Source: Acidimicrobiaceae bacterium (GTDB lineage: Bacteria; Actinomycetota; Acidimicrobiia; Acidimicrobiales; Poriferisodalaceae). Taken from it: 64,000 bases of DNA. The stretch is taken from assembly GCA_905182565.1 (NCBI GenBank), contig CAJJCB010000012.1, positions 1 through 64,000 of the forward strand. Direction: 5' to 3'. Position numbers and translations under genes: made by a program. Under the pieces are notes generated by a model. That model worked only from the letters and a program-made list of their open reading frames with translations. It did no database searches and was not told the DNA's origin. Shown piece after piece: positions 12,499 to 22,590 of the stretch (the stretch's first letter is position 1; each line of letters begins with the position of its first letter).

Positions 12499-13239
12499 AT
12501 GAACCAACTGGTAACGCGAACCGACAGAGATGGCATTTCCACCCTTGAGCTAAATCGGCCACAAGCTTTAAATGCGCTCAGTCCATCAATGTTTGTGGAG
12601 CTAAGAGACCACCTCGAAGACCTTGCGCTCATGAAAGACGAAATCGGAGTGATTATTCTAAGCGCTGCCGGTAAATCATTTTCAGCAGGCAATGACCTGA
12701 AGGCGATCCAACGAGGAGATCGCTCCCCCTCACCTCATTATCAAGCAGAAACCCTTGACTTGATTGAATCTATGCCACAACCAGTCATCGCAGCTGTCCA
12801 AGGTTATTGCTACACTGGCGCACTCGAGTTAGTGCTCGCATGCGACCTACTCATATGCGCAGACGATGCAATATTTTGTGATAGTCACGGTAAATGGTCA
12901 ATGGTTCCGACCTGGGGAATGACGACTCGCCTACCCGAGCGAGTTGGACTTATGACAGCCAAAGACATTATGTACAGTGGCAGATCTATCTCCGGCAAAG
13001 AAGCCGTACAAGTTGGTCTTGCTAATCGCTCAGTTCCAGAAATTAAGTTAAAGGCAAGCGCTTTTGAGTGGGCCGCTAGTATCTCCGCAAATTCGTGGCA
13101 CACGTTAGCGGAAGAAAAAAAACAGATACTTGCCCTATCAGAAATGGAACGATCCGAGGGAATCAAGTGGGCCCGAGAAAACGGCCCTGGCGCTGGAGCA
13201 GATATGAAAGAACGGATACAAAATAGCTTTGGTCGCTGA
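12499..13239 (+). CDS. enoyl-CoA hydratase/isomerase (crotonase) family protein
   Basis: A 246-residue crotonase-fold protein. LELNRPQALNALSPSMFVEL and SAGKSFSAGNDLKAI form the first oxyanion loop. YCYTGALELVLACDLL matches the region with the first catalytic Glu of hydratases. The stretch where the second Glu normally sits reads SHGKWSMVPTWGM, with Lys at the Glu position, so classical hydratase activity is doubtful. An AAAGG sequence precedes ATG 12499 by 8 bases. The true substrate is unknown. Confidence 0.88.
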   Translation: MNQLVTRTDRDGISTLELNRPQALNALSPSMFVELRDHLEDLALMKDEIGVIILSAAGKSFSAGNDLKAIQRGDRSPSPHYQAETLDLIESMPQPVIAAVQGYCYTGALELVLACDLLICADDAIFCDSHGKWSMVPTWGMTTRLPERVGLMTAKDIMYSGRSISGKEAVQVGLANRSVPEIKLKASAFEWAASISANSWHTLAEEKKQILALSEMERSEGIKWARENGPGAGADMKERIQNSFGR

Positions 13240-13326
13240 TTAGCTTTCCTCAAATATTTGGCAAGGTATCCGCACCTCTCATGACGCTTTTTGGTACCGT
13301 CAGCACCAGTTCAACAAGGAGACTCC

Positions 13327-13686
13327 GTGAGTAAAGTAGTTATCTACCATAACCCTCATTGAGGGTCATCAAAAACTGCCTTAGCGGTCGCTGAGGATCA
13401 AGGTGTAGACGTAGATGTTGTTCTATACATGAAAACACCCCCAGACAAAGCAGCTCTTGAACATCTTGTTTCTGTTCTTGAAGATCCGGTAGAAGACCTG
13501 GTCCGTAAAGATTCACAGTTCAAAAAATTAGAACTTAACCCTGATGACTATGTAAATAATCCATCAGCAGTAGTAGATCTGTTATTGCAACGCAAAGCCC
13601 TGTTGCAACGACCAGTTTTAGTTAGTTCAACTCGCGCTATTATCGGACGGCCAAAAGATCGAATCGCTAATTTCTTGTCGAACTAG
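13327..13686 (+). CDS. arsC: ArsC-family arsenate reductase, selenocysteine-containing (in-frame UGA)
   Basis: Read from GTG 13327, with AGGAG five bases upstream, the frame gives VSKVVIYHNPH-U-GSSK. The TGA at 13360-13362 sits at residue 12, exactly where plasmid R773 ArsC has catalytic Cys12. The rest follows the family: DLVRK, QRPVLV and IIGRPK supply the three Arg residues equivalent to the arsenate-binding Arg60, Arg94 and Arg107. Total length is 119 residues. A 7-bp hairpin with a GGTC loop follows the UGA, and selD lies 8 kb away. A standard caller would begin this gene at the internal ATG 13429 and lose the active site. The alternative, a pseudogene with a nonsense mutation, is less likely given the hairpin and intact downstream frame. 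Arsenate as substrate is family knowledge. Confidence 0.88.
13379..13396 (+). promoter_or_regulatory. bacterial SECIS-like hairpin in arsC
   Basis: Bases 13379-13385 (CCTTAGC) pair with 13390-13396 (GCTGAGG) over seven base pairs, one of them U-G, closing a GGTC tetraloop. The first loop G is 24 bases beyond the last base of the UGA, within the usual window for bacterial SECIS elements, and the GG at the loop start fits the SelB-binding preference. The stem is inside the coding frame. Confidence 0.75.
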
Positions 13687-13829
13687 ATAACGATTCGTGA
13701 GACCTTCAAAAGTAACCGTTATGACAACGACGAAAAGCAACTGCTCGAGACTGCTTCTAGAACGATTACATTAAAATAGCCACCGCAAACAGGAATCGCC
13801 GTACTAGGTTATGTATTGCTGCTAACACT

Positions 13830-14040
13830 CAGTGGGAGAGCCCTTAAAGAATATTGCATTCTTGCAGGCGCCGAAGGAGCAACCGCCCCGGACAATCTCT
13901 CAGGCAAACGGACCGCTGGGAAGAAGCAACGCTGGAAAGATTTAAGGCATCAAAACCTTAAACACCGAAGGGGAAAACCGCTTTAGGGTGGCCAATCTCT
14001 CAGGTTCCCAGACAGCGCGGGGCGTCAAGATTTGACGCGA
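13830..14040 (+). ncRNA. tandem glycine riboswitch upstream of gcvT
   Basis: Two consecutive glycine aptamers lie in the 370-base gap before gcvT. The first has GGGAGAG (13834), GCGCCGAAGGAGCAA (about 13868-13882) and AATCTCTCAGGCAAA (13894-13908). The second has GCTGGAAAGA (13931), CACCGAAGGGGAAA and CCAATCTCTCAGGTTCC (about 13992-14008). A perfect 7-bp hairpin GCGTCAA-GAT-TTGACGC (14022-14038) sits 18 bases before the gcvT ATG and is not followed by a U tract. Control is therefore more likely of translation initiation than of termination. Glycine binding is expected to turn the operon on. Confidence 0.93.
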
Positions 14041-14056: not shown

Positions 14057-15196
14057 ATGACTGAACGTAAACCAGAGATAACATCTAACAACGAATTAAA
14101 AAAGACTGCGCTCTACGATCTACATGTCGAGCTTGGGGGCAGACTCGTTCCTTTCGCCGGCTACGAGCTTCCCATTCAATACGATGGGGTGATAGCAGAA
14201 CACCGTGCGGCTCGCGAAGCAGCCGGGTTATTTGATGTTAGCCACATGAGAATAGTCGACGTCTCTTCGATGGATAGCTCAGATGTCGGCGAAACGTTAG
14301 AGCTGATCGCTCCTGGGGGTCTCATCACTCTTGGCCACAACCGACTTCGCTATTCGATGCTCACAAACGACACCGGAGGAATAGTAGACGACGTCATCTT
14401 TACACGAATGGCTAACCGTTTCCGCCTTGTACTGAATGCTTCCCGAGCAGAAATTGACCTTAAGTACCTGAATGCATTGTTAGGTGATCAGCTAATTTTT
14501 AGGCCTCGACAGGACTTGGCCCTTATCTCGATACAGGGACCGAAGGCAATAAGTGTCCTCCAGCAACATGATCCGGCAGTGGCCGATCTCTCCTTTATGG
14601 AAGCCGGGCTAATTAATTTCGGGGAAACCGAGTGCGATATTTCAAGAAGTGGGTATACGGGAGAAGATGGTTTTGAAATCGCTATACCCAATGATGAAGC
14701 AGAACAAATAGTTCGTTTATTGCTCTTGGACGAAACGTTAAAACCTGCTGGCTTAGGAGCGAGAGATACTCTTCGCTTAGAAGCGGGACTGTGCTTATAT
14801 GGTAACGAACTCAGCGAGAGCACGACTCCAGTTGAAGCAAATCTCAGTTGGACTATTCCGAAGCGACGCAGACAAGATCAGCGTTTTCCTGGTGCCCACA
14901 CAATTTGCTCACAACTTGAAAAAGGCACTGATAAAACGCGAGTTGGAGTAACCGCATTAGGAAAGAGACCTATCCGAGATGGGGCTCAACTGTTCAATGA
15001 GAACAACCAAATAGTAGGACTCATAACTAGCGGAGGTTATAGCCCCACTACTGGCAAGCCAATCGCAATGGGCTACATAGACACTCCGTACGCAAAAGAA
15101 GATAACTACTTAACTGCCGTTGTGCGAGGTAAACAAATCGGATGCACAGTCGCTCCGTTGCCATTTGTGCAACACCGATACAAACGATCTAAATAA
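14057..15196 (+). CDS. gcvT: glycine cleavage system aminomethyltransferase (T protein)
   Basis: Transfers the aminomethyl carbon from lipoyl-GcvH to tetrahydrofolate, releasing ammonia. The 379-residue protein begins TALYDLHVELGGRLVPFAGY and continues AGLFDVSHMR, SRSGYTGEDGFEIAIP, LGARDTLRLEAGLCLYGNEL, all T-protein signatures. A C-terminal barrel domain follows (GVTALGKRPIRDGAQLF). It is the first gene after the glycine riboswitch and is followed 16 bases later by gcvP. The start ATG 14057 lacks a clear Shine-Dalgarno, consistent with structural control of the leader. Confidence 0.96.
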   Translation: MTERKPEITSNNELKKTALYDLHVELGGRLVPFAGYELPIQYDGVIAEHRAAREAAGLFDVSHMRIVDVSSMDSSDVGETLELIAPGGLITLGHNRLRYSMLTNDTGGIVDDVIFTRMANRFRLVLNASRAEIDLKYLNALLGDQLIFRPRQDLALISIQGPKAISVLQQHDPAVADLSFMEAGLINFGETECDISRSGYTGEDGFEIAIPNDEAEQIVRLLLLDETLKPAGLGARDTLRLEAGLCLYGNELSESTTPVEANLSWTIPKRRRQDQRFPGAHTICSQLEKGTDKTRVGVTALGKRPIRDGAQLFNENNQIVGLITSGGYSPTTGKPIAMGYIDTPYAKEDNYLTAVVRGKQIGCTVAPLPFVQHRYKRSK

Positions 15197-21534: not shown

Positions 21535-22590
21535 ATGTCCTCAATTCGCCTAACGCAATACAGCCACGGCGCTGGTTGAGCTTGCAAACTCGGTCCGGAT
21601 GACCTGGCGCACGTGTTGCGTCATCTACCTCTCTCACAACACCCGAGTCTTCTCGTCGGGTCTGAAACTAGTGATGATGCAGCTGTTTGGCGATTAAAAA
21701 ACGGAAGCTGCATCGCATCGACTACTGACTTTTTTGCTCCGATCGTAGACGATGCCAGGATCTGGGGGCGTATCGCTGCAGTAAATGCTGCGAGTGACAT
21801 ATATGCGATGGGCGGAACTCCTATATTTGCCCTGAATCTGGTGTCTTGGCCAAAAGATATTCTTCCGTTAGATCTTTTATCAGAGGTTCTGCTTGGTGGC
21901 AATGATGCCGCAGTCGAGGGTGACTGGATTATTGCTGGAGGCCACACAGTCGATGGACCAGAACCTATGTATGGACTTGCTGTCACAGGAGAAATAGATG
22001 CGGACACTATGCTCACTAACGCAGGAGGATTACCAAAGCAAGCGTTGGTCCTAACGAAGCCCATAGGGACAGGGCTCTTGGCCACAGCAGTCAAAAACTC
22101 CCCCGTGAGCGCAACGCAGCCTGGCGGTGCACTTGCAGCGATGTACGAAATTGGCGTGAACGAAATGTGCAGATTAAACGCTGCTGCAAGCTCAATCGCC
22201 TTAAACGTCAGGGCATCTAGCGCAACCGATGTGACCGGCTTTGGGTTGCTTGGTCACCTTGCAGAGTTAGCTACTGCTAGCGGCTTATCTGCTTCCATTA
22301 ACATGTCCCAGATTCCTCTCCTGCCCAATGTCGAAAGTCTGATAGATCAAGGCTTCGTAGCCAGTGGTAGCGTTCGAAACTTAGACTTCCTAGATGATTC
22401 CGTAACAGGCGGAACTCCCAGCCAACGGCTACTTCTTGCCGATGCGCAAACATCGGGAGGATTACTTTTTGCCTGTGATCAGTCAGCCGCTGAAGAAGCA
22501 TTGCACGCGCTAATTGAAACTGGACACACTGCCGCGATCATCGGAAGGCTCGATGATGGTGCTCCAGGTCATATTACGATCGATAGCTAA
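21535..22590 (+). CDS. selD: selenide, water dikinase SelD, with in-frame UGA (predicted selenocysteine)
   Basis: Makes selenophosphate from selenide and ATP for selenocysteine synthesis. Starting at ATG 21535 the frame reads YSHGAG-U-ACKLGPDDL: the TGA at 21577-21579 is residue 15, matching the catalytic Cys17 position of E. coli SelD, and Lys18 matches the essential Lys20. Downstream motifs are normal: SETSDDAAVWRL, STTDFFAPIVDD, NAASDIYAMGGTP, DVTGFGLLGHLAELA. Total 351 residues, normal for SelD. Calling the gene from the internal GTG 21613 would lose the active site. SelD enzymes with Sec are known in other bacteria. The gene is followed by a J-domain gene after 17 bases. Confidence 0.92.
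21605..21623 (+). promoter_or_regulatory. bacterial SECIS-like hairpin in selD
   Basis: Bases 21605-21611 (TGGCGCA) pair with 21617-21623 (TGCGTCA), including one G-U pair, closing a CGTGT loop. The loop G is 34 bases past the UGA, near the far end of the usual range. A shorter alternative, GGTC-CGGAT-GACC at 21592-21604, places loop G residues 18 bases past the UGA. Which of the two SelB would use is uncertain. Confidence 0.55.

Follow-up and report, generated by a model that had tools for sequence, protein, structure and literature searches.

A selenocysteine-containing ArsC-family protein in Acidimicrobiales with a conserved SECIS hairpin and a proposed role in oxyanion reduction

An ArsC-like gene that carries a TGA codon at the place of its catalytic cysteine raises two questions: is this codon read as selenocysteine (Sec), and if so, what does the resulting protein reduce? 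Such a gene lies on the forward strand at positions 13327-13686 of the stretch of DNA analysed here (64,000 nucleotides, hereafter the window), which comes from contig C12 of the 2.65 Mb genome (95.6% complete) of an uncultured Acidimicrobiales relative.

The frame opens with a GTG codon at 13327 and closes with TAG at 13684-13686; its sole in-frame stop is the TGA at 13360-13362 (codon 12, forward strand). Read through, it encodes 119 residues, with Sec as residue 12 (motif HNPHUGSS). A ribosome-binding site, AAGGAG, occupies 13316-13321 of the same strand, 5 bases upstream of the start, in agreement with the good ribosome site and GTG start of the preliminary description, and AAGGAG or GAGGAG-like sites also precede the start in many relatives. 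With the TGA read as a residue, the product scored 50.5 bits against the ArsC domain PF03960 (cut-off 24); it also matched solved ArsC structures, with E-values as low as 1.5e-16, the best of these being arsenate reductases. Plain table-11 calling yielded only 13429-13686 (85 aa), so that a standard caller, as had been predicted, starts at 13429 and misses the active site. Being the only table-11 ORF of this frame in the ORF list, the short ORF could be regarded as the real product and the upstream part as a leader. However, it would be devoid of the catalytic residue and of the N-terminal third of the domain, while codons 4-34 are conserved to the same degree as the remainder of the gene and the good ribosome site precedes 13327, which makes this explanation very improbable.

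Alignment with R773-type ArsC (glutaredoxin-coupled; TIGR00014; PDB 1jzw/1i9d), for which the reference letters were those of the solved chain over the aligned part, leaving out the C-terminal tail, together with the PF03960 match, placed the TGA exactly at Cys12, as originally proposed. The two proteins belong to the same fold family and share, besides position 12, the residues His8, Ser15, Arg60, Arg94 and Arg107; the claim that the rest of the protein, including the three arginines, is intact was thus borne out. In contrast to the R773-type enzyme, the protein has Sec instead of Cys12 and no other cysteine, its equivalog score stays below the cut-off, and pump genes were not found (see below). 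The comparison covered 101 Sec and 20 Cys homologues: Ser15 and the three arginines were identical throughout, and so was His8, except in one row truncated at the end of its contig. The encoded protein is completely free of cysteine, as are 99 of the 101 Sec proteins. The gene product is very probably an ArsC-family selenoprotein (thioredoxin/glutaredoxin-like fold, COG1393) with Sec chemistry of the Grx-coupled type.

A TGA at this position might also be a nonsense mutation in a pseudogene or a misread TGC or TGT, since TGC and TGA differ by a single base, and one genome alone would look alike in these cases. We found the gene in 36 of the 39 genomes of the source's family, and the best match contained exactly one TGA in 36 out of 36. 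Codon 12 was TGA in all 30 family homologues read and in 80 of the 80 best named-genome loci, which were mostly Acidimicrobiales MAGs with some Verrucomicrobiota; the nearest of the named records, from an uncultured Acidimicrobiales bacterium, shared 97% identity in the matched segment. The preliminary description had pointed to stops scattered elsewhere in the frame of relatives as counter-evidence, but the listed relatives have none. The recurrence of this TGA in dozens of genomes that were assembled separately (83 distinct stretches), the lack of any other disruption, the synonymous freezing and pair-keeping changes immediately 3' of the TGA and the full Sec system of the genome (both described below) leave damage or sequencing error an exceedingly small probability.

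In the whole order, a homologue was found in 238 of 397 genomes. Forty further homologues were read base by base, picked by the stop count of the search so that about half had a stop and half did not: codon 12 was TGA in 20 and TGC in 20, and nothing else (one TGA case had been scored as stop-free since its match began past the TGA at a contig end). Cys and UGA therefore alternate at position 12, as the alignment suggested at the outset was to reveal, with no other residue in the loci read. The Sec and Cys states are clustered, requiring 3 changes on a tree built without the codon-12 column; as this tree is based on few columns and has many weak forks, we make no claim on the directions of change. 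The actinobacterial context, initially described as less familiar, is not exceptional, since most relatives with the gene are Acidimicrobiales.

Verrucomicrobiota of several groups (loci L093, L095, L106, L108, L110, L111, L114, L115, L117, L120 and L122) encode Sec-ArsC proteins 67-73% identical to the one described here, with nearly the same SECIS. Most Verrucomicrobiota rows fall in a supported branch alongside Acidimicrobiales rows, which suggests that Sec-ArsC may have been transferred between the phyla Actinomycetota and Verrucomicrobiota. Phage records contained distant ArsC only, and the exact SECIS pattern was absent from the viral contigs searched.

Insertion of Sec at UGA by means of SelB and a SECIS element is established for bacteria. 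Downstream of codon 12, at 13379-13396 of the forward strand and 16 bases after the UGA, the RNA can form the hairpin CCUUAGC-GGUC-GCUGAGG (7 bp, loop GGUC; folding energy -10.4 kcal/mol). Among 83 distinct sequences the loop GGUC was present in all 83 and the two inner pairs were invariant, while pair 5 was GC in 59, AU in 15, GU in 8 and CG in 1, with no mismatch. In the pair table of the family alignment 98.4% of the cells were paired, a value that no slid version approached. In all of 110 genes the fourfold degenerate codons 20 and 21 were GCG and GTC, and GCC stood at codon 18 in 109 of them (as some assemblies are counted here in two collections, there are closer to 83 distinct sequences); the median synonymous heterozygosity at conserved columns of the gene was 0.57. 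The Cys homologues are devoid of the hairpin sequence, and when the codons were recoded at random with the amino acids kept, 0.13% of trials produced such a GGTC hairpin. Folding of single sequences was weakly better than that of shuffles for a 54-nt stretch (z=-1.28), and gave z=-2.55 for the isolated 25-nt hairpin. The comparative support for the hairpin, as judged from these alignments, is thus far stronger than that from single-sequence folding. Rfam scans returned no match to a SECIS family, a result which we took as uninformative. On comparative grounds, we assign the hairpin at 13379-13396 as a bacterial SECIS.

The genome contains a tRNA-Sec (65.5 bits, above the cut-off; identified by ARAGORN as tRNA-SeC, anticodon UCA), SelA (393 bits) and SelB (293 bits), both above their cut-offs, with selA adjoining selB; all three are located on a contig other than that of arsC. 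SelD also scored above its cut-offs, and its gene lies inside the same window as arsC (21535-22590, forward strand). This selenide water dikinase is itself a selenoprotein (motif HGAGUACK), with a UGA codon for Sec at 21577-21579 of the forward strand, the usual Sec/Cys site of SelD. The proposed genome search for selA, selB and tRNA-Sec thus recovered all of them, plus selD, and as tRNA-Sec and SelB are present, the objection that a genome lacking either would have raised does not arise. Across the 148 genomes of the order whose stop count was listed, selB was present in 117 of 120 with the TGA versus 8 of 28 without it (Fisher p=1.7e-15); completeness is 74-84% in the three TGA genomes from which selB is missing. 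When the window was searched for further selenoproteins by a simple hairpin rule, four candidates emerged, and only two of them, arsC and selD, are plausible. A standard gene caller would truncate selD.

A single in-frame TGA, taken by itself, would also permit an alternative genetic code, in which TGA means Trp or Cys throughout the organism. However, the surrounding genes read without interruption under table 11, with TGA as the stop codon of some of them (e.g. that at 12499-13239), the genome carries tRNA-Sec(UCA) and SelB, and in selD, the second gene found with a TGA, the UGA stands at the usual Sec site; the probability of such a code is practically negligible. Conservation, the SECIS and the Sec machinery led us to reject the pseudogene, the sequencing error, the alternative code and the short ORF.

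We propose that the UGA at 13360-13362 is decoded as Sec by tRNA-Sec and SelB, the latter being bound to the GGUC-loop SECIS at 13379-13396; if selenium were lacking, the product would stop after 11 residues. Sec12 stands where R773 ArsC has Cys12; positioned by His8, Ser15 and the three arginines, it would attack an oxyanion, most likely arsenate. Judging from active-site identity alone, arsenate is the probable substrate, and we hold this view with some reserve. In Grx-coupled ArsC an outside thiol completes the cycle. As the protein lacks Cys, the adduct could not be resolved internally and an outside thiol would be needed, so that resolution would be left to a low-molecular-weight thiol and a glutaredoxin-type protein. 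The search of the genome with PF00462 yielded a single protein, which is mycoredoxin-like (CGFC; TIGR02200 64 bits, below the curated cut-off of 89.5); this points to mycothiol and mycoredoxin as the likely partners, a pairing that we judge about equally apt to be right or wrong. The Sec codon, the SECIS, the Sec machinery, the active-site residues and the absence of other cysteines are features read from the DNA itself.

What the protein does in the cell must be considered in the light of its surroundings. The gene order is serB, enoyl-CoA hydratase, arsC, glycine riboswitch, gcvT and gcvP, the names of the four protein-coding neighbours being presumed from general recognition of their translations. 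The riboswitch aptamer (13823-13925; RF00504, 62.3 bits) is situated directly 3' of arsC and before gcvT (14057-15196), which is followed by gcvP. The arsC locus is not part of an ars operon. In the genome (95.6% complete) neither ArsB (PF02040) nor Acr3/SBF (PF01758) had a match, and hits to the arsenite methyltransferase model were weak, partial and below its cut-off. Scanned with C for Sec, the protein reached 90 bits with the TIGR00014 equivalog, whose cut-off is 106, and is therefore not granted the name "arsenate reductase" by that rule; it is the sole TIGR00014 match in the genome. Since neither pump was found, we put forward the arsenate role as a proposal.

The selenoprotein might instead have a non-arsenate task, acting as a selenol reductase for another oxyanion or for a mixed disulfide, in housekeeping and not in resistance. 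This would agree with the negative search of the genome for ArsB and Acr3 pumps, with the lack of an ars operon, with the synteny with serB, enoyl-CoA hydratase, gcvT and gcvP, which is kept in part of the family, with the near-universal presence of the gene in the 39 family genomes and with the missed TIGR00014 cut-off. On the other hand, Ser15 and the three arginines of R773 ArsC are retained in every Sec and Cys homologue examined, as is His8 save for the one truncated row, and arsenite may leave the cell by another route. We regard a housekeeping task as possible, with less than even confidence. More speculative, and in our opinion unlikely as a whole, is the scenario in which Sec-ArsC became fixed in much of the Acidimicrobiales, passed together with its SECIS between Actinomycetota and Verrucomicrobiota, and serves, in genomes with no known arsenite pump, for an undescribed selenol-based housekeeping reduction, not for arsenate resistance.

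The preliminary description placed Sec-containing ArsC-like proteins in marine metagenomes, and they are indeed on record there. The Sargasso Sea selenoproteome (2005) included 14 Sec arsenate reductases with the motif UXXS and a bacterial SECIS (PMC1088965), and the GOS selenoproteome (2008) comprised 77 sequences of 'ArsC 1' with UxxS (PMC2398784). The UxxS ArsC family also appears, with MBT3519430.1, in two reviews from 2022 and 2026 (PMC9312934, PMC13188914), the later of which describes the functions of such selenoproteins as still largely uncharacterised (PMC13188914). Our literature search turned up no biochemical study of a natural Sec-ArsC and, within its partial coverage, no paper tying the UxxS ArsC family to Acidimicrobiales or Verrucomicrobiota.

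The protein studied here resembles that family in its domain (pfam03960/COG1393), Sec at the catalytic Cys, the motif UxxS (here UGSS), the common occurrence of Cys homologues, and a bacterial SECIS that closely follows the UGA and has a G in its apical loop. The following marks of the family were found: domain, UGA/UxxS, Sec/Cys pairs, SECIS and a host with selA, selB, selC and selD; the likeness to the published entries (AACY01238341, MBT3519430.1) is drawn from their descriptions. In contrast to the metagenomic and mostly hostless Sargasso and GOS reports, a host group, its complete Sec system and an order-wide distribution are given here. Another ArsC-related selenoprotein, the ArsC-like UxxC type (NF041106; GOS 'Arsenate reductase 2', cd03032), differs in that its second redox residue is Cys, whereas here it is Ser in a Cys-free protein. 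The regulators Spx and MgsR share the ArsC-like fold and family, but Spx models scored much lower on our protein; Spx proteins are characterised by CxxC and by their interaction with RNA polymerase.

The selenoprotein is genuine, and its family has been known from ocean metagenomes since 2005. The new findings are that it occurs densely in Acidimicrobiales and is shared with Verrucomicrobiota, that its SECIS is frozen, and that neither an ArsB nor an Acr3 pump was found. Host organisms can hereby be assigned to a selenoprotein family for which ocean reads have been the main source until now. Moreover, dozens of distinct members with a near-frozen SECIS constitute training material for selenoprotein finders, which is useful because ordinary annotation truncates or misses such genes. 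An apparent arsenate reductase that is near-fixed in a family, with no ArsB or Acr3 pump found in the one genome closely examined, also poses a testable question.

Eight genomes (G236, G124, G178, G331, G163, G057, G351 and G411) contain selB together with an ArsC match without TGA; they are candidates either for loss of Sec in arsC or for old Cys lineages. Finally, some distant Sec homologues (e.g. L180-L182) differ at the hairpin site, where they have GCC GTG CGC ATT, so that the SECIS is not uniform across the order. In L180, L181, L182, L184, L185, L186, L188 and L189 a conserved stretch, AAT GCC GTG CGC ATT GCN GAR, follows the UGA. Replacing the GGUC hairpin, this stretch is possibly a second type of SECIS for arsC.
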